The notes below the pieces were generated by a model that saw only the letters and a list, made by a program, of their open reading frames with translations, was not told the origin of the DNA and searched no databases. From Verrucomicrobiota bacterium (GTDB lineage Bacteria > Verrucomicrobiota > Verrucomicrobiia > Opitutales > Opitutaceae), in the NCBI GenBank assembly GCA_030605125.1, contig JAUWBD010000009.1, positions 1 to 49,966 of the forward strand: a stretch of 49,966 bases of DNA, written 5' to 3'. Positions 2,872 to 31,944 of the stretch are shown here, one piece after another (the stretch's first letter is position 1; each line of letters starts with the position of its first letter). A program made the position numbers and the translations under genes.

Positions 2872-2985
2872 TTTTAGCGCGAAGACGCAAAGAACGAGCC
2901 GAAGACCGCGAAGGGAAAAAGCGGAGACGACAGGGAGCCGGCACTTGGCGATCTTGGTTCGAACCTTCGCGTCTTGGCGTTAAAA
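2872..2985. repeat. Inverted repeat built from CGCGAAGA-type units (copy 1)
   Basis: The 169-bp gap between the isomerase and the oxidoreductase carries a left arm (2872-2914) of CGCGAAGACGCAAAG-like units spaced about 8 bp. The right arm (2944-2985) has the same units in reverse (CCTTCGCGTCTTGGCG), and both arms end in TTTTA/TAAAA. Read on one strand, the arms match at most positions over about 40 bp, so a long stem is possible. A second member lies at 20322-20440. No ORF is present. Function unknown. Confidence 0.75.
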
Positions 2986-3011
2986 CCACACAACCCTTCA
3001 CCCTTTACATC

Positions 3012-4115
3012 ATGTCCCAAAAAATCGGCATCGGAATCATCGGCTGCGGCAACATCTCGCAGGCCTACTTCAACGGCGCGAAGCTCTTCGAGGTCCTCAA
3101 GGTCGTGGCTTGCGCGGATATCAACACCGCGCTCGCCGAGGCGAAGGCCGCGGAAAACGGCTGCAAGGCCCAGACCGTGGACGAGCTGCTCGCCAACCCC
3201 GAGGTGCAGCTCGTCATCAACCTCACCATTCCCGCGGTCCACGCGCAGGTGAGCCTCGCCGCGCTCGCCGCCGGCAAGCACGTGCACAGCGAGAAGCCCC
3301 TCGCGGTTTCGCTCGAGGACGGCAAGAAGGTCATCGACACCGCCGCGGCCAAGGGGCTGCTCGTCGGCTGCGCGCCCGACACCTTCCTGGGCGGCGGCTT
3401 TCAGACCTGCCGCAAGCTGATCGACGATGGCTGGCTGGGCCGGGTGGTCGGCGGCACGGCCTTCATGATGAGCCGCGGCCCCGAGAGCTGGCACCCGAAT
3501 CCCGCCTTCTTCTACGAAAACGGCGCCGGCCCGATGTTTGACATGGGGCCCTACTACGTCACCGCGCTCGTGCATCTGCTCGGTCCGGTGAAGCGCGTGA
3601 GCGCGATCACGAGCAAGGCCTTCGAGCAGCGCATCGCCACCTGCAAGGAGCAGTTCGGCCGCGTGCTTCCGGTGCAGATTCCCACGCACTACTCGGGCTC
3701 GCTCGAGTTCCACTCCGGCGCGGTGATCACCGCGACCATTTCCTTCGACGTGTATAAGCACGGCCACAGCCCGATCGAGATCTACGGCACGGAGGGCTCG
3801 ATGAAGGCGCCCGATCCGAACACCTTCGGCGGCCCGATCGAGCTCTGGACGCCCGCGACGAAAGAGTGGCAGACGCAGGCCATGAGCCATCGCTACCTGA
3901 TGAACTCGCGCAGCATCGGCGCGGCCGATCTCGCCTACGCGATCCTGAGCGGCGGCAAGCGCAAGCACCGTGCGAGCGGCGCGCTGGCCTACCACGCGCT
4001 CGAGGTCATGCACTCGTTCGAAAAGTCGTCCAAGACCGGCGCGAGCATCGAGATCGTCTCCCGCCCCGAGCAGCCCGAGGCGTTGCCGCTCGGCCTGATC
4101 GAAGGACGGCTCTGA
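3012..4115 (+). CDS. Gfo/Idh/MocA family NAD(P)-dependent oxidoreductase
   Basis: 367 aa, ATG 3012. The N-terminal Rossmann fold begins GIGIIGCGNISQAYF, and the family EKP catalytic motif follows at about residues 95-97 (HVHSEKPLAVS). The C-terminal alpha/beta domain carries GPMFDMGPYYVTALVHLLGP, the usual DxGxYxxxxxxxLxG region. Members oxidise or reduce sugar and inositol derivatives. It follows the isomerase across a repeat-bearing 169-bp gap and is closed by a terminator at 4137-4192. The two genes probably act in one sugar pathway; the substrate is unknown. Confidence 0.93.
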   Translation: MSQKIGIGIIGCGNISQAYFNGAKLFEVLKVVACADINTALAEAKAAENGCKAQTVDELLANPEVQLVINLTIPAVHAQVSLAALAAGKHVHSEKPLAVSLEDGKKVIDTAAAKGLLVGCAPDTFLGGGFQTCRKLIDDGWLGRVVGGTAFMMSRGPESWHPNPAFFYENGAGPMFDMGPYYVTALVHLLGPVKRVSAITSKAFEQRIATCKEQFGRVLPVQIPTHYSGSLEFHSGAVITATISFDVYKHGHSPIEIYGTEGSMKAPDPNTFGGPIELWTPATKEWQTQAMSHRYLMNSRSIGAADLAYAILSGGKRKHRASGALAYHALEVMHSFEKSSKTGASIEIVSRPEQPEALPLGLIEGRL

Positions 4116-4136
4116 CGGAGTGTGGTCAAAAAAAGC

Positions 4137-4192
4137 CCGGCCCGGGCCTCACCCGGGCCGGCGCGAGCCGCCGGCTGGCGGGCGGCTTTTTT
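4137..4192 (+). terminator. Composite rho-independent terminator after the oxidoreductase
   Basis: Two hairpins in series lie 21 bp after the stop. The first is a perfect 10-bp stem CCGGCCCGGG with loop CCTCA (4137-4161). The second is a GCCGCC/GGGCGGC stem (4166-4187) directly followed by six T. The remaining gap to the histidine kinase (4193-4370) shows nothing I recognise. Confidence 0.8.
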
Positions 4193-4370
4193 ACGGAGAA
4201 TCCCCGGTGCCAGAACGAGGGATTCCCCGGAAAGATATCTCTGGCGAGGGTGCGGGTTCCGGCCGATTTTGCCACGATGTTGATCGGAGCGGACGTGGGG
4301 ATCGGGAAAAAATGGGTGCGGAGGGCGTCTCACCCGGGCCGCACGTTCAAGCCGGGTTGACGAAAAACCA

Positions 4371-6134
4371 ATGCCCGTTCGCGCCCACAGTGATCTCTAT
4401 GTCCCCGGTTGCCCGCTCGACGCGGTGCTCATCACGCACCTGCTCGAAGCCCGGCCTACGCGTCCCCCGCGCTTCGCCGAGGAAAACGCGGCCCTCATCG
4501 AGCTCGCGACGGCGCTGGCCGACGCGCCGGACCAAGTGCTGCAAAGCGTCTCCGATCTCGCCTGCCGGCTGTGCGAGGCGGAGTCGGCGGGCATCAGTTT
4601 GCAGGAGGTGGAGAACGGGCGGGAGGTTTTCCGCTGGCGCGCCACCAGTGGCCGCATGCGGCCTTACCTGAACGGCGTCATGCCGCGTGATTTCAGCCCC
4701 TGCGGCCTGGTGCTGGACCGACGCGGGACGCAGTTGATGGCCGATCCGGTGCGGCACTACCCCTACATCTCGCAGCTCGGGGTGCCCTTGCGCGAGGTGT
4801 TGCTCACGCCTTTCTACAGGCGCGGCGTCCCGATCGGCACGGTGTGGGTGGCGAATCATGGCCCGGGTCGCGACTTTGACCGGGAGGATTTGCGGGTTGT
4901 GCAAAACCTCGCCCGCTTCGCCTCGCTCGCCTCGGAGATGTGGTCGAGCTCGCGGCAGGTCGAGGGGCTCGGGCGTCAGCTCGCGGTCGTGGGATCGCAG
5001 ATGGAGCGCGCCTTGGAGGCGGCAAGCATCGGCACTTGGAACTGGGATCCTGTGAACGACCGCATGTTTGCCGACGCCAAGACGGCGCGGCTCTTCGGTG
5101 TGACGGCGGAGGAGGCGAACGGCGGGCCGGTGAAGGTGTTTCTCGAAAAACTGCATCCCGAGGACCGGGCGCGGGTCACGGTCGCCCTCGAGGAGGCCTT
5201 GGCGCACGGCGGCGCCTACGCGGTGGAGTTTCGCCTGCCGCAACCGAATGGGTCTTGCTTTTGGCTGCGTTCGCATGGCCGCACGCACTCGTGCGCGTCG
5301 GGCAAGGCGGTGCGCATGCCCGGCGTGGTGGTGGACATCACCGAGCAGCGCGAGACGGAGGAGTCTCTGCGGCGCTCCGAGGCGCTACTCGCGGAACAAA
5401 ACCGCCGCCTCGAGGAAAACGTGGCCGCGCGCACGGCGGAGCTCGACGAAAAGGTGCGGGAGCTGGAGGCCTTTTCCTACACCGTCTCGCACGATCTGCG
5501 CGCACCCCTGCGCGCGATGCGGAGCTACGCGGAGTTGCTCGAGGCGGAGCATGCCGAGGGGGCCAGCGCGCAGGCGCGGGAGTATGCGCGCCGGATCATG
5601 CGCGGAGCGGAGCGGCTGGATCGGCTCACCCAGGATCTGCTGCTGGTGGGCCGGCTGTCCAGGCAGGCGCTGCCGCTGGAGGTGGTGGATCTCGGCGATT
5701 TTCTGGCGCAAATGCTGGAATCGTATCCGGACCTTTCGTCCGACCATGCGGACATCGTGGTGCGCCCGCCCTTGCATCCGGTGTTGGCCAATTCCGCCGC
5801 GCTCACGCAGTGCGTCTCGAACCTGCTCTCCAACGCCGTCAAATTCGTCGTGCCCGGCCTGCGTCCGCGGATCGAACTCTGGACGGAGCGGCAGGGCGGC
5901 CGGGTGAGCCTCTTCGTGCGCGACAACGGCATCGGCATCGACGAGCGGCACCGCGCACGGATCTTCGACATCTTCTACCAGATCGCGCCCAACTCCCGCA
6001 GCACGGGGATCGGGCTCGCGGTGGTGCGGCGGGCGGTGGAGCGCATGGGCGGCGGCGTGAGCGTGGAATCCGCGCCCGGCCGCGGGAGCACCTTTCGGCT
6101 CGAGCTGGCGCATCCGGCGGGGCCGGGCGCGTAG
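4371..6134 (+). CDS. Sensor histidine kinase with GAF and PAS domains
   Basis: 587 aa. Approximate domains: GAF 45-190; PAS 210-330 with a PAC-like end (GVVVDITEQ); a coiled linker (QNRRLEENVAARTAELDE); HisKA with H-box FSYTVSHDLRAPLRAM (His374); and HATPase with N-box SNLLSNAVKF, G1 DNGIGI (about 518) and G2 STGIGL (about 544). The H-box is of the bacteriophytochrome-like HWE-unrelated type. No membrane segment is seen, so it should be cytoplasmic and sense through GAF/PAS. No response regulator is adjacent, so it is an orphan kinase and its signal is unknown. Confidence 0.95.
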   Translation: MPVRAHSDLYVPGCPLDAVLITHLLEARPTRPPRFAEENAALIELATALADAPDQVLQSVSDLACRLCEAESAGISLQEVENGREVFRWRATSGRMRPYLNGVMPRDFSPCGLVLDRRGTQLMADPVRHYPYISQLGVPLREVLLTPFYRRGVPIGTVWVANHGPGRDFDREDLRVVQNLARFASLASEMWSSSRQVEGLGRQLAVVGSQMERALEAASIGTWNWDPVNDRMFADAKTARLFGVTAEEANGGPVKVFLEKLHPEDRARVTVALEEALAHGGAYAVEFRLPQPNGSCFWLRSHGRTHSCASGKAVRMPGVVVDITEQRETEESLRRSEALLAEQNRRLEENVAARTAELDEKVRELEAFSYTVSHDLRAPLRAMRSYAELLEAEHAEGASAQAREYARRIMRGAERLDRLTQDLLLVGRLSRQALPLEVVDLGDFLAQMLESYPDLSSDHADIVVRPPLHPVLANSAALTQCVSNLLSNAVKFVVPGLRPRIELWTERQGGRVSLFVRDNGIGIDERHRARIFDIFYQIAPNSRSTGIGLAVVRRAVERMGGGVSVESAPGRGSTFRLELAHPAGPGA

Positions 6135-27427: not shown

Positions 27428-27932
27428 GGAAGCGCAGCAACAGGTAGAGCGTGCCGGCGGCGGGCGCGACCAGGTAGGCGGAGAGGTTGATCGTCTGCGT
27501 GACCACGATGCCGGGCGTGAGGTCCGGGTAGGCCGCCGTTGGATACAGCGGAGGCAGCCCGGCCGCGAGGCGGGCGCGAGCGAGCGCGCCGAACGCAAGC
27601 AGGAGGACTTCGATCGCGATCAGCAGGAGCGCGAAGCCGCCGAGGGCGGACGAGAGAGGGACGGGGGCGCGCGCTCCGGCGCGGCAGGCGAGCCAGGCGA
27701 GAAACCCGAAGGCGAGGCCGGGACCGAGGGTGGCGACCGAGGCGTATTGCAGGGCGAGCAAGCCGTGGCGCTCGAGCGGCAGCAGCGGGCGGTGGTATTC
27801 CGTGAAATGGCGGGGCTCGACGCCGATCAGGTAGAGGTCGTGCAGAAACGCCCAGGCCAGGATCAGGCTCGCGAAGGCGAGCATGAAGCGCGCGAGCGGG
27901 CGGCGTTCTTGCTCGGGGATGGGGAGGCGCAT
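27399..27932 (-). CDS. Four-helix membrane protein of unknown function
   Basis: 177 aa, ATG 27932. Four hydrophobic segments (about 15-32, 58-82, 92-118 and 142-170), a short cytoplasmic-looking N-terminus (MRLPIPEQERRPLARF), no recognised motif. It lies 22 bp downstream of the peptide-binding lipoprotein on the same strand and is probably co-transcribed. It does not look like an ABC permease (no EAA loop). The 3' end overlaps trpF by 29 bp in convergent orientation. Confidence 0.75.
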   Translation of the reverse strand: MRLPIPEQERRPLARFMLAFASLILAWAFLHDLYLIGVEPRHFTEYHRPLLPLERHGLLALQYASVATLGPGLAFGFLAWLACRAGARAPVPLSSALGGFALLLIAIEVLLLAFGALARARLAAGLPPLYPTAAYPDLTPGIVVTQTINLSAYLVAPAAGTLYLLLRFLNRARPMPN

Positions 27933-27954
27933 GGGCGGCGCGTCGCGGCGGCGA

Positions 27955-29592
27955 TCAGGGCTCGAGGCTCACGTGCTTGAGCGGGTGGCGGTCGAGGAGG
28001 GTGGGGTGCCAGCCGCGCACGGCGGGGTGCAGGAGATAGACGTGGGTGTTGAAGTAGAGGGGGAGAATCGGCGAGGCCTCGAGGAGGCGCGTCTCGGCGG
28101 CGCGGTAGAGCGCGTGGCGGCGCTCCGGATCGAGCGTGCGAGTCGCCTCGTAAATCGCGCGGTCGTAGGCGGGGTCGCTCCAGCCGGTGAAGTTTTGCGC
28201 GCTGTCCTTGGTGAAGAGGGCGAGAAAACTGAGCGGATCGTTGTAGTCGGCCACCCAGCCGGAGCGGAGGAGCTGGAAATCACCCGTGCGGCGGGCGTCG
28301 AGGAGGGTGGAGAACTCCTGGTTCACGAGGCGCGTCTGGATGCCGATGGCGCGCCACTGTTGCTGGAGCACCTCGGCGATGCGGCGGTGGTTTTCGGAGG
28401 TGTTGTAGAGCAGGTCAAAGACCGGCAGGCCGCGGCCCTCGGGGTGGCCGGCCTCGGCGAGGAGGGCGCGCGCGGCGTCGGGATCATGGCGGAGGAGCGA
28501 GGGGGGCTCGTAGCCGCCGGTGCCCGGGGGCACGAAGCCGGTGGCTGGGCGTTGGCCGCCGCGGAGGAGGGCGGAGACGAGCGCCTCGCGGTCGAGGGCG
28601 AGGGAAAGGGCGCGGCGCACGCGGACGTCGTTGAGGAAGGGGCGGGCGGTGTTGATACGGTAGAAGTAGATGTCGAGAAACGGATCGGCGCGGAGCTGGG
28701 CGGGGGCGGAGGCGCGCCAGGCCTCGACGCGGCCGGGCGGCAGGGTGTCGATGACGTGGAGCTGGCCGGCGCGGTAGGCGCGCTCGGCGGCCTCGACGCT
28801 GTCGAAGGGGTGGAAATGCACGGCGCGGAGGCGGACCGTGGCGGCATCCCAGTAGGCGGGGTTGGCCGCGGCGACGATCACTTGGCCGCGGCGCCAGTCG
28901 CGGAGGAGGAAGGGGCCGCTGCCGACGAAGGTGGCGGGCGTGGACGCCCAGCGGTTGCCGCGGGTATCCGGCGCGCCCGCCGCGGCGATGGCGTGGAGCG
29001 GCACGGGGAACCAGACCGGATGGGAGAGCAGGGAGAGGAAGTGCGAGGCGGGGTATTCGAGGGCGACGCGGACGACGTGCGTATCCGGCGTGCTGATACC
29101 GACAGCGGAGAAGTCGGCGAGGCGCCCCTTGTGGTAGGCCTCGGCGTTGAGCACGGGGTAGAGCAGCTCGGCGTTGGGCGCGCCGAGGGAGGGCGAGAGC
29201 GCGCGGCGGAAGGAGGCGACGACGTCCTCGGCGGCGATGGGGCGGCCGTCGGACCAGCGTGCGTCCGGGCGAAGGTGGAAGGTGTAGGCGAGGCCGTCCG
29301 CGGGGACCTCCCAGCGGGCGGCGAGGCCCGGCACGGGCGCGAGCGTTTCGGGGTGCTCGCCGACGAGGCCCTCGAAGAGGGCGGAGATCACGTGGATGTC
29401 GTTGAGCGAGGAGGCGAGGTGGGGGTCGAGGTCGGAAGGCTCGGGGCCGATGCCTCGGTGGAGCGTCTGGGTGCGGAGGCCCTCCTCGACGAGCGTGGTG
29501 CGCGGGGAGCAGGCGGCGAGGAGGAGGCCCGCGATACACGCGAAAACGCACGAGAGGGGGCGAAGGAGAGAGGCGGGCGGGAGGACGGGCAT
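27955..29592 (-). CDS. Peptide ABC transporter substrate-binding lipoprotein (SBP family 5, OppA/DppA-like)
   Basis: 545 aa, ATG 29592. Lipoprotein signal with lipobox LLLAAC near residue 27. The family 5 pattern follows: PSDLDPHLASSLNDIHVI, SDGRPIAAEDVVASFRRALSP, the domain-hinge region VGSGPFLLRDWRRG, and NDVRVRRALSLALDRE. Family role: binds oligopeptides outside the inner membrane and feeds OppBCDF-type permeases. No permease or ATPase genes adjoin; it pairs only with a small membrane protein downstream. Confidence 0.95.
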   Translation of the reverse strand: MPVLPPASLLRPLSCVFACIAGLLLAACSPRTTLVEEGLRTQTLHRGIGPEPSDLDPHLASSLNDIHVISALFEGLVGEHPETLAPVPGLAARWEVPADGLAYTFHLRPDARWSDGRPIAAEDVVASFRRALSPSLGAPNAELLYPVLNAEAYHKGRLADFSAVGISTPDTHVVRVALEYPASHFLSLLSHPVWFPVPLHAIAAAGAPDTRGNRWASTPATFVGSGPFLLRDWRRGQVIVAAANPAYWDAATVRLRAVHFHPFDSVEAAERAYRAGQLHVIDTLPPGRVEAWRASAPAQLRADPFLDIYFYRINTARPFLNDVRVRRALSLALDREALVSALLRGGQRPATGFVPPGTGGYEPPSLLRHDPDAARALLAEAGHPEGRGLPVFDLLYNTSENHRRIAEVLQQQWRAIGIQTRLVNQEFSTLLDARRTGDFQLLRSGWVADYNDPLSFLALFTKDSAQNFTGWSDPAYDRAIYEATRTLDPERRHALYRAAETRLLEASPILPLYFNTHVYLLHPAVRGWHPTLLDRHPLKHVSLEP

Positions 29593-29672
29593 GGGCGAGC
29601 GGGGAGCTTCGCGAGCGCGGCGCCCGGCCGCCAGCGGTTTTCGCCTGCCCGTGTTGTGTCGGTGGCCGAGAT

Positions 29673-30434
29673 TTAACCGGTTCCCGCAAGCTGCTTGGCC
29701 ACCATCAGGCCAATGCAGAGCGCGAGGCCGCCGGAGAGGAGAGTGCCGATGAGCACGTATTCGGCGAACGCGCGATCATCCAAAGCCTTTGAGCGTGCGA
29801 AGGCCTTTGCGGCGAGGATGAAGCCGATGGCGCCATACTGCCCTTGCAGAATGAAGCCATAGAGGAGGGCGCGTTCGAGCAGGCCGATGACGCGCCCCCG
29901 GTTGAACTCGCCGATGTCCACGGTCTCCGTTCCCGTCGCCTGTGCGCGTGGCTTGAGGTTTAGCCGGTCGAATACGGCGCGGATCGCAAGGTTGGCTTCG
30001 TTGGCTGAAAGCAGCAATCCGAGCAGGATCAACTGCGAGCCATGGCTAAATAGTCCCATGAGCAGCGGGGACAGGGTGCTCCATTCCGCCAGGCGCCAAC
30101 CCAGTTCCTGCCAGACGGGGCGAAACAGGACGCCGGCGCCCGAAGAGAAGCAGATGCTCAGGCCTGCCAGTTCAAGCAGGCCGATGAGCAGGCGGCGGGA
30201 GTTGCGCCGCTTGAGGCGATTTTCCGCGGCGAAGCCGGCGAGGTTGGCGGTCGCCACCAAGATGAACGCCCCAACGAGCGGTCCTCCGAATTCGAAGCAG
30301 GCGGACAACGCCCCGATCTCGATAATCGTTTTTCCGGCTCATGCTCGTCGAGGCATGGGATCGTCGCGGAAGTAGCAAAAGAGCCGTGTGGTCAGCACGA
30401 GGTTGGCGGCGACCAAGAAAGAAAGCGGGATCAT
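29673..30434 (-). CDS. SatD-partner membrane protein, interrupted by one in-frame TGA (codon 32)
   Basis: The frame starts at ATG 30434, overlapping the satD stop as ATGA, and encodes MIPLSFLVAANLVLTTRLF, then stops at TGA 30341-30339. The same frame stays open at once beyond it (AGKTIIEIGALSACFEFGGP) to 29673. Read through, the product has 253 aa and several membrane helices. Its C-terminal part (GRVIGLLERALLYGFI, AIGFILAAKAFARSK, EYVLIGTLLS) resembles the end of DUF3307-type proteins often paired with SatD. Changing TGA to TGG (one transition) would restore it. Otherwise a 211-aa product from TTG 30308 remains possible. Confidence 0.65.
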
Positions 30435-31060
30435 CGTCCGAGCGCGGTGTTCAAGGATCGGGTCAATTCAAGAAGGACGCGCCGCCATTCGTCCAGATCG
30501 GCGGCGCGGATGTTCTTGTTTACCGCCCGGGGCGTGATTTGGGCCGCCTTGGCCAGCGAGACGCTGTCGGCGCCGTCCAACAGCCCGGCCATCAGGCGCA
30601 GCCGTGTATCCCGCCATGGCTCGATGATCCCGGAAAAAATCGCGAGCACGGGTTTGGCGAGACGGGAAGCCTCCGGATCCAGGCCGCCCAGCCCGAGAAG
30701 GCGGCCGTCCTTCTTCAGGCCGTTCATGATTTCGCGCGCTTCGTGGAAAGCGGGGCCGTCCATCCCGATCGCTTGTCGTTTGTTTATCGGAGTGTCGATC
30801 TTGCCGACGGACAGGGCGAAGCGGACACGGATCGGCGCCAGCGCGTGCAAAAGGAAAAAAACATCGCCGAACGTGGTGTCCGCGTCCCGGTAGATAGCCT
30901 GAAACTCGTCGCCCAGCGTGATGGTGAAAGGGGATCGCAGGCCGGCCTCGCGACGGCGGTTCAGGGATTGAACCGCTTTTTGCAGACGTCGCTGCAAAGA
31001 TGTCCGATCAGTGGCATGGCGAGAGGCCACGAGATCGCCGATCAGCACGAGATGGTTCAT
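30431..31060 (-). CDS. satD: SatD family protein
   Basis: 209 aa, ATG 31060. Start NHLVLIGDLVASRHATDRTSLQRRL and the segment SPFTITLGDEFQAIYRD are typical of the SatD family (PF16264), named from the streptococcal sat operon; the function is not established. The C-terminal 50 residues (VSLAKAAQITPRAVNKNIRA) look like a helix-turn-helix, so DNA binding is plausible. It overlaps the membrane-protein gene by 4 bp, and its own promoter carries repeated AAGAACC palindromes, which fits autoregulation (inference). Confidence 0.85.
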   Translation of the reverse strand: MNHLVLIGDLVASRHATDRTSLQRRLQKAVQSLNRRREAGLRSPFTITLGDEFQAIYRDADTTFGDVFFLLHALAPIRVRFALSVGKIDTPINKRQAIGMDGPAFHEAREIMNGLKKDGRLLGLGGLDPEASRLAKPVLAIFSGIIEPWRDTRLRLMAGLLDGADSVSLAKAAQITPRAVNKNIRAADLDEWRRVLLELTRSLNTALGR

Positions 31061-31068
31061 CGGATCAT

Positions 31069-31132
31069 AAAGAACCCAAATGGTTCTTTTATCAATAAGG
31101 AACCAATTTGGTTCTTTTGGTTAAAAAGAACC
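31069..31132 (-). promoter_or_regulatory. satD promoter with two and a half AAGAACC palindromes
   Basis: Site 1: AAAGAACC-CAAAT-GGTTCTTT (31069-31089). Site 2: GAACCAA-T-TTGGTTC (31100-31114). A half-site AAAGAACC lies at 31125-31132. Centres are 28 bp apart. On the minus strand a TATGAT -10-like box sits 5-10 bp before the ATG and TTGATA lies between the two sites, so site 1 would be within the core promoter. This is the most AT-rich stretch of the neighbourhood. Candidate repressor operators; the binder may be SatD itself. Confidence 0.7.
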
Positions 31133-31140
31133 TCTGGAGG

Positions 31141-31944
31141 CTAAGCTCTGGGCGGACCGGGCGGGGGCGCGGGCGGCGGGGCGGGCGGATCCGCGCGCTC
31201 GGCGCGGAGGGAGGCGAGTTCCTGCTGGAGCGCTTCGAGGCGGGCGAGCATCTCGGCCTGGGCGCGGCGCGAGGCGGGCTCGTCTTTTTCCCCTCCCAGA
31301 AAAAACGATGCCGCCACGCCGCTGAGCGTGCCGAAGAGGCCGATGCCGGAGACCATGAGACACACGGCGATCATCCGGCCGGCGTCGGTGACGGGGAAAC
31401 GGTCGCCGTAACCGACGGTCGTGACGGTCGTCATGCTCCACCAAAGCGCCTCCTCGGCGGTGTGGATGTTGGCCTCGGGATGGTCGCTCTCGACCACGAG
31501 CACACCGGCGGAGCCAAAGGCGACGACCAGGAAGGTGATGGTGACGACCGAGGCGACGCCGGCGTGGGCCTTGCTGTCGGCGAGCAGGCGGACGAGCCGG
31601 CGGAAGGTGCCGACCGCGCGGATGAGCCGGATGATCCGGATGATCCGGAACAGGCGGGCCCAGCGGAAAATCTCGACGGACGGGACGGCCGCGAGGAGGT
31701 CGAGCCAGCCCCATTTGAGGAAGCGGAGCTTGGACGGGGCGGCGCGGAGACGAATGAGGAAATCGAGAAAGAAGACCGCGCACACCGCCGTGTCGATGTA
31801 GGTGAGGAGACGGCTGACCTCGCGGGGAAGGTCGAGAACCCAGTCGGCGGCGAGAGCGGCGAGCAGGATGAGCGCGAGGACGAGGAGGGCGAACTGGAAG
31901 GGGGTAAAGTCTTCTCGCGGAGTTGCGGTCACGCCGTCGGCCAT
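31141..31944 (-). CDS. Voltage-gated potassium channel (Kv type)
   Basis: 267 aa, ATG 31944. Six membrane segments. S4 is arginine-rich with regular spacing (RWARLFRIIRIIRLIRAVG), and the pore loop is WWSMTTVTTVGYGDRFPV with the K+ filter TVGYGD. The C-terminus is a helical, probably coiled-coil tail (AEMLARLEALQQELASLRAE) ending in a proline-rich end. It should form a tetramer in the inner membrane. No regulatory RCK domain. Its stop is adjacent to the satD promoter. Confidence 0.95.
   Translation of the reverse strand: MADGVTATPREDFTPFQFALLVLALILLAALAADWVLDLPREVSRLLTYIDTAVCAVFFLDFLIRLRAAPSKLRFLKWGWLDLLAAVPSVEIFRWARLFRIIRIIRLIRAVGTFRRLVRLLADSKAHAGVASVVTITFLVVAFGSAGVLVVESDHPEANIHTAEEALWWSMTTVTTVGYGDRFPVTDAGRMIAVCLMVSGIGLFGTLSGVAASFFLGGEKDEPASRRAQAEMLARLEALQQELASLRAERADPPAPPPAPPPGPPRA

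Follow-up and report, generated by a model that had tools for sequence, protein, structure and literature searches.

SatD as a probable ladder-binding autoregulator beside an interrupted membrane-protein gene in a Verrucomicrobiota genome

Introduction

In streptococci, the sat operon has the gene order ylxM-ffh-sat. SatD has been named a secretion/acid tolerance protein (PMC10326533, PMC5786311), and the passages of these papers that concern it mention it at the level of annotation, without a helix-turn-helix (HTH), an operator, or a cyclase-like fold. A third paper (PMC4886424) deals, in its relevant passages, with DUF2652 and not with SatD. A description of SatD as an HTH regulator or as a relative of cyclases was not found in the openly licensed literature, nor was a tested function for the SatD or DUF3307 families in the literature searched.

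Several described systems stand close to SatD in predicted structure or gene context. Class III nucleotide cyclases (Rv1900c, Ma1120) share the predicted fold and both aligned aspartates, whereas SatD has Ile47 in place of a lysine that we take to be purine-specifying and is predicted to carry an attached HTH. The palms of Cas10/Cmr2 and GGDEF proteins belong to the same fold class (9l7d_B, Z 10.5, 3.2 Å over 130 residues), but these proteins have an architecture other than that of SatD. BAD_0249 (3onq) and Rv2242 (9f80), presumably GGDEF-like plus HTH regulators, are built on a related plan and appear at Foldseek ranks 26, 30, and 48 (E 7e-4 to 2.5e-3, 199-248 columns), although they are longer proteins and superpose poorly (TM 0.23-0.35, rmsd 14.5-16.3 Å). 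The Pycsar pair (PycC and PycTM) likewise places a cyclase-like protein beside a membrane protein, and the cUMP synthase 7r65 is Foldseek rank 25 for SatD; unlike Pycsar, SatD carries an HTH and an operator. Finally, DUF3307 proteins (PF11750) adjoin SatD or SatD-like genes, as does the membrane protein described below, but the N-terminal PF11750 domain is missing from the latter.

Here, we describe a satD locus in a stretch of 49,966 nucleotides of contig JAUWBD010000009.1 (the window).

The satD locus

The locus consists of satD and a downstream membrane-protein gene (the partner), which is interrupted in the window:

31060-30431, minus strand: satD, 209 amino acids, ATG start and TGA stop; predicted cyclase-like palm domain at about residues 1-125, linker helices, and C-terminal HTH at 166-186
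30339-30434, minus strand: 5' part of the partner gene, with its ATG at 30434 within the overlap with the satD stop, 31 sense codons, and an in-frame TGA at 30341-30339
29673-30338, minus strand: remainder of the partner gene, 221 open codons plus TAA at 29675-29673, with the C-terminal part shared with DUF3307 proteins

By its Pfam match the window protein is a clear member of the SatD family PF16264 (E=3.7e-26, 92.5 bits vs a cut-off of 29), covering profile positions 2-163 of 211. The initial annotation had satD overlapping a membrane-protein frame through ATGA, and this overlap is indeed present at 30434-30431, where it joins the satD stop to the partner start. The gene order of the streptococcal sat operon was not encountered; in the window, satD is flanked by genes of ion-channel and peptide-binding families (Pfam). 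A 597-amino-acid open frame (27883-29676, plus strand) runs opposite the peptide-binding protein gene and is probably a by-product of G+C-rich codon use.

The operator ladder

The region before satD contains a series of operator sites and half-sites in a common register:

31128-31132: upstream half-site GGTTC at -72, in the 28-bp register
31098-31116: operator site with AACC at -53, reading AAGAACC-N5-GGTTCCT on the minus strand
31090-31095, minus strand: TTGATA, where L005, L045, L046, and L047 have TTGACA/TTGACT; a resemblance only
31070-31088: operator site with AACC at -25, reading AAGAACC-N5-GGTTCTT, between the TTGATA hexamer and the start codon
31054-31058: downstream half-site GAACC at +2, over the satD start codon, in the 28-bp register

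The two AAGAACC palindromes and single half-site reported earlier for this promoter were thus recovered (AGAACC-N5-GGTTC[CT] at -53 and -25, GGTTC at -72), and the operator is richer than that report stated, as it has the extra in-register half-site GAACC at +2. Altogether, six half-sites follow each other in 28-bp steps counted from the satD start (GAACC at -54, -26, and +2; GGTTC at -72, -44, and -16), where the chance expectation for such words is 0.2 in 165 bp of window. When up to three mismatches are allowed, the palindrome has three matches in the window, a count that was also reached by 4 of 100 shuffles; the significance therefore comes from the repeat at fixed spacing and from conservation, and not from one palindrome alone. 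The exact pattern RGAACC-N5-GGTTCY occurs at three places in the genome, two of them before the window satD. A wider regulon was not seen genome-wide, where the operator with one mismatch occurs at 15 places and a reversed control pattern at 37. The TTGATA hexamer stands 29 bases before the satD ATG, and a promoter scan of 30950-31300 returned no sigma-70-like site.

The same ladder precedes satD genes of many phyla. In a set of 88 satD promoters, at least one AACC-N5-GGTT site (at least 7 of 8 positions matching) was found in 71 and at least two in 53, compared with means of 5.8 and 0.28 (maxima 13 and 2) in 100 dinucleotide shuffles; the other 17 promoters have no such site. The set omits L063, L071, and L073 (same records as L004, L007, and L008), L002 (identical to L047), L009, and L013. 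Successive sites (n=93) are spaced by 29 bp in 45 cases, 28 bp in 41, and another distance in seven, so that 86 of 93 fall at 28 or 29 bp. When a finder was given no more than the gap and the 28/29-bp period, it recovered the same half-sites in most loci, together with variants such as TGAAGC and TGAACA; for the window itself it picked a shifted register of the ladder.

As a control, 22 promoters of partner and DUF3307 genes were searched, and the N5 pattern was found once in two of them and twice in none. This control comprises six partner genes without satD and 16 DUF3307 genes, 15 of which have a SatD-like gene upstream; in L033, L034, and L042 the start is placed inside the gene, and the N5 pattern is blind to N6 ladders present in some of the same loci. 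Such ladders are seen in L029, L030, L035, and L038, where the interval from the SatD-like gene to the DUF3307 gene contains GCAAC(C/T)-N6 palindromes with a spacing of 29 bp. In the six partner promoters without satD (L020-L024, L026), the N5 operator pattern is absent from five and occurs singly in L026.

Covariation of residue 178 with the operator base

Among 208 SatD alignment columns scored against the base 5' of AACC, residue 178 ranked first (z=16.1), and the next column reached 6.9. For this comparison, 55 loci were labelled by a majority base of at least 60%, of which 53 were scored (L051 and L074 are too short). Loci with G have Arg178 in 14 of 15 cases (the exception, L006, has Ser), and loci with A have Gln in 10 of 13 (Val in two, Ile in one). 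Where the base is T (n=10), the residue is Val in six, Pro in three, and Thr in one; where it is C (n=15), Lys was found in eight, Gln in three, and Ala and Ser in two each. Contacts of arginine with guanine and of glutamine with adenine are familiar in protein-DNA recognition. The window SatD has Arg178 in its recognition helix. Outside the set from which this code was drawn, eight of eight remote SatD-like genes (seven from one genus) have AAACC ladders with steps of 29 and 29 bp, and all eight proteins have Gln at the place matching residue 178, as positioned by eye.

The covariation holds among 25 representatives with less than 45% identity. Independent pairs were taken from a tree of the N-terminal domain. 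Of 14 pairs whose bases differ, 12 also have different residues at 178 (L062/L064 and L088/L094 being the two failing contrasts), as do 4 of 24 pairs that share the base. The latter pairs are on average less distant (0.86 vs 1.31); among those at least 0.58 apart (mean 1.10), 3 of 18 have different residues at 178. Column 178 is top-ranked among the 208 whether all or only the distant same-base pairs are used. Two further links appeared in a multi-base scan of 60 loci with a score of at least 40 (minus the window, L074, L051, L072, and L010-L012), the same 60 loci that, together with the window, served for the tree-pair tests. Residue 182 tracks base 5 (z 13.8, with only four loci having G) and residue 181 tracks base 1 (z 7.9, a value that some columns beyond the HTH equal or exceed). 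Kinship is not taken into account by shuffle z-scores, and values up to 8.7 occur in columns that are not part of the HTH, so these weaker links are not secure. In the AlphaFold2 model, residues 178, 181, and 182 all belong to the second HTH helix (177-186).

As the operator base covaries with a residue of the recognition helix, SatD itself very probably binds the ladder and autoregulates the pair. An autoregulated two-gene module, as proposed in the initial annotation, is therefore supported by an operator that recurs across phyla and covaries with a SatD helix, and by a partner that is intact downstream in most of the loci surveyed below.

Predicted fold of SatD

The AlphaFold2 model of SatD has a mean pLDDT of 97.2 and places the HTH helices at 166-173 and 177-186; the HTH-like C terminus noted earlier thus agrees with the model as well as with HTH profiles, which match homologues. 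HTH_23 matches 50 of 76 SatD homologues at E<=5, while the window protein itself has only a sub-threshold Spo0A_C match. Searched against the PDB, the full-length SatD profile found six weak chains (E 0.03 to 0.58), all matching in the HTH region; five are known HTH proteins by name and one is an uncharacterized protein.

Residues 1-125 are predicted to adopt a class III nucleotide-cyclase/palm fold. Foldseek returned 31 PDB matches at E<=0.001, of which ranks 1-25 are all cyclases (best 1ybu, E 1.8e-5, TM 0.43/0.53) and two of those below rank 25 are the regulator 3onq. A second structural aligner gave Z 9.5 for the best cyclase, 8.5-8.8 for GGDEF proteins, and 10.5 for Cas10/Cmr2 palms. Cyclases are also found by sequence when a profile of the N-terminal domain is used (Ma1120 at E 0.007; cyclases in 6 of 10 listed chains); this profile was needed, as a single remote SatD used as query found none. 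In the profile alignment, D9 and D51 of SatD align with aspartates of Ma1120 that we take to be metal-binding. Both are invariant in 12 of 12 relatives from a whole-protein search and in 18 of 18 sequences of another alignment; D9 is also invariant in 76 of 76 homologues, in which D51 was required beforehand by the scan pattern. The alignment with Ma1120 ends before the transition-state Asn/Arg. Catalysis by SatD appears doubtful, as Ile47 aligns with the presumed purine-specifying lysine of Ma1120.

Invariant among the 76 homologues are D9, S13, R19, Q23, R80, G86, T90, D101, G102, A108, and R109; residues 48-54 are so too, but were required by the scan pattern. This alignment omits L051, L071, L073, L074, and L111 of 80 loci. 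The pattern of conservation suggests a pocket under strong selection, which makes a nucleotide ligand probable. PADLOC assigned no family to the window SatD or to the SatD of L102 (no match to a PycC model).

Distribution and gene neighbourhood

Among 200 genomes of the same taxonomic family, SatD was matched in 14 and the C-terminal part of the partner in 34. Within the genus, satD was found in one of 15 genomes, the present one, and in none of the 14 congeneric genomes. A scan of named genomes, which required the pattern [LIV]TLGDEFQ and is no census, yielded at least 548 loci. Of the best 80 of these 548, which come from many phyla, 62 have an intact partner downstream, and in eight the partner is broken or reduced beside an open satD (L067, L076, L093, L099, L101, L111, L113, L120). 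It was not found in four (L051, L061, L102, L119), and a contig end cuts it in six (L060, L073, L074, L088, L096, L109). As the loci were sampled by satD, the frequency of a broken partner with an intact satD is not comparable with the reverse. In the isolate genome L076, the partner contains an in-frame TAG. Most often, the satD stop and the partner start share four bases (24 of 70).

SatD was also found in eight plasmid records, three of them haloarchaeal. Three of the eight were inspected. The haloarchaeal plasmid L143 carries a SatD-DUF3307 pair (2971-4388) with a four-base overlap, and apparent inverted repeats with other half-sites occur there in 29-bp steps. In the Sphingomonas and Agrobacterium plasmids, a short gene containing the C-terminal part lies downstream of satD. 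In the Agrobacterium pAt plasmid (L145:3810-4082), the gene after satD is annotated as a hypothetical protein of 90 residues whose first residue already falls within the conserved C-terminal part, and a misplaced start is therefore possible. A comparison of the window SatD with phage records gave no match at E 0.01.

In six loci of another genus (L020-L024, L026), the partner was seen with no adjacent satD. Of the DUF3307 genes of the taxonomic family (L028-L035, L037-L044), 15 of 16 have a remote SatD-like gene upstream, 14 recognized by profile and L035 by eye. In one case, a Chloroflexi MAG (L102:975-1529), the usual partner after satD is replaced by a gene resembling PycTM/2TM effectors (Pfam PycTM E 8e-8; PADLOC 2TM effector 4e-31 and PycTM 1e-19). 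The neighbours of satD are otherwise diverse: pdxJ and DUF2400 (Pfam) each account for 5 of 87 proteins, the 87 being drawn from 151 listed neighbour proteins. A reading of these loci as defence islands is unsupported, with 11 PADLOC families each present in one or two of the 87.

The partner and its interruption

The partner had been called a DUF3307-type protein, and this description stands in part. Its C-terminal 123 columns are homologous to DUF3307 proteins (hhalign 99.8%, E 6e-30), and the shortest partners retain just this shared part. No Pfam family, and hence no PF11750, was assigned to the C-terminal part or to the 31-residue N-terminal part of the window partner. PF11750 is likewise absent from the 25 families shown, out of 30, for 59 partner homologues, the families being ordered by count and then by E to 0.69. 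Membership in Pfam DUF3307 was therefore rejected for want of the PF11750 N-terminal domain, and common ancestry of the C-terminal part is kept. The partner homologue of L045 is predicted to be all-helical (pLDDT 93.5). It matched no PADLOC family (no PycTM), and a clear structural relative was not found (best Foldseek E 0.69, best VIA Z 7.1); such weak matches do not show a new fold.

The partner frame halts after 31 codons at the TGA, as had been described; the 222 further open codons given for it are 221 sense codons and the stop. In 12 of 12 relatives from the family, six of them from one genus, both halves lie within a single open frame and codon 32 aligns with tryptophan, the residue whose presence the initial annotation had proposed to check. 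Two separate genes for the two halves, in different frames, do not fit these relatives and were not seen. In the model of the intact relative L045, helices span residues 3-20 and 28-45, and the matching tryptophan, assigned by eye, is residue 31, at the start of the second helix. At most, only about the first membrane helix would thus be made from the truncated gene in the window, while satD and its operator look intact.

TGA ends 7 of 11 window genes whose stops were checked, satD among them (Pfam identified SatD, the channel, and the peptide-binding protein, and the remaining names were assigned by eye). It is thus an ordinary stop in window genes, and the partner is interrupted by a nonsense codon, either a true mutation or a base error, in line with the earlier proposal of an inactivated second gene or a sequencing/assembly error. 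On the reading that TGA encodes an amino acid here, whether in this gene alone or genome-wide, the tryptophan of the 12 family relatives is what TGA=Trp would give. This stop usage, however, rules against recoding, and the position does not demand tryptophan, which occupies it in only 11 of a wider set of 59 partners (Leu in 23); readthrough is exceedingly improbable. That the TGA is a base-calling or assembly error in an intact gene is quite possible: apart from this codon the frame stays open, for 221 codons, and can be aligned with relatives along its length, and the genome is split into 271 contigs. Against this, the broken or reduced partners in 8 of 80 other loci, with L076 and L099 being named isolate genomes, indicate that real lesions seem to occur.

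Proposed mechanism and alternative explanations

Taken together, satD and its partner probably form a self-contained module in which SatD is a one-component regulator that binds the ladder and most likely represses the pair. SatD combines an HTH with a conserved operator at its own promoter, as expected of a one-component autoregulator (operator binding is predicted). The gene pair, the ladder, the residue-base covariation, and the predicted fold come from computation; we infer in addition that SatD contacts the DNA directly, that it represses the pair and does not activate it, that its ligand is a nucleotide, and what the partner might do. SatD would consist of an N-terminal class III cyclase-fold domain joined to a C-terminal HTH, and would bind NAACC-N5-GGTTN palindromes every 28/29 bp over its own promoter. 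Bound to the ladder, it would repress satD and the partner; if the palm domain bound or made a nucleotide, the DNA binding of SatD would change, and the membrane partner could then be made.

Promoter geometry bears on the direction of control. In L005, L045, L046, and L047, the last operator site is preceded at 8-9 bases by a TTGACA-like hexamer, which is itself followed by the start codon 28-31 bases further on. In these loci the last site would fall in the -35/-10 spacer, which favours repression and a very short leader or none, and argues against SatD activating the pair. Activation seems unlikely, although the window sites also extend further upstream (-53 and -72), no good sigma-70 promoter was found in the window, and promoter elements have no constant place over 63 loci. 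In these 63 aligned promoters, the hexamer is 8-9 bases before the last site in only 12 and most commonly, in 17, inside the last site. Because of this varying position and the negative window scan, repression is put forward as an inference. The ladder might also belong to another regulator merely encoded near satD, as its link to SatD is drawn from sequence and as, in L029, L030, L035, and L038, it lies between the SatD-like and the DUF3307 gene and not before the SatD-like gene. Yet a SatD-like protein is encoded next to the ladder in all four of these loci, and no other SatD column follows the operator base as closely as residue 178; binding by an unrelated regulator only, the outcome that would have spoken against the initial annotation, was not seen and is very improbable.

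Implications

What is out of the ordinary at this locus is the regulator, and not the stop codon that drew attention to it. Through the residue-base covariation, SatD acquires a testable role as a putative DNA-binding autoregulator with a simple recognition code, and the code between residue 178 and the operator base predicts SatD operators in other genomes. As to the signal, the predicted fold suggests a nucleotide. It is conceivable, though doubtful, that SatD is the core of an unrecognized nucleotide-signalling system in bacteria and haloarchaea, a self-regulating cousin of Pycsar in which the palm makes or senses a messenger, the HTH acts through the 28/29-bp ladder to keep the module off, and the partner serves as effector or transporter. 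If so, nucleotide-signalling SatD could even pair with a PycTM-type effector, as in L102. The covariation also makes the role of an uncharacterized group of membrane proteins directly testable.
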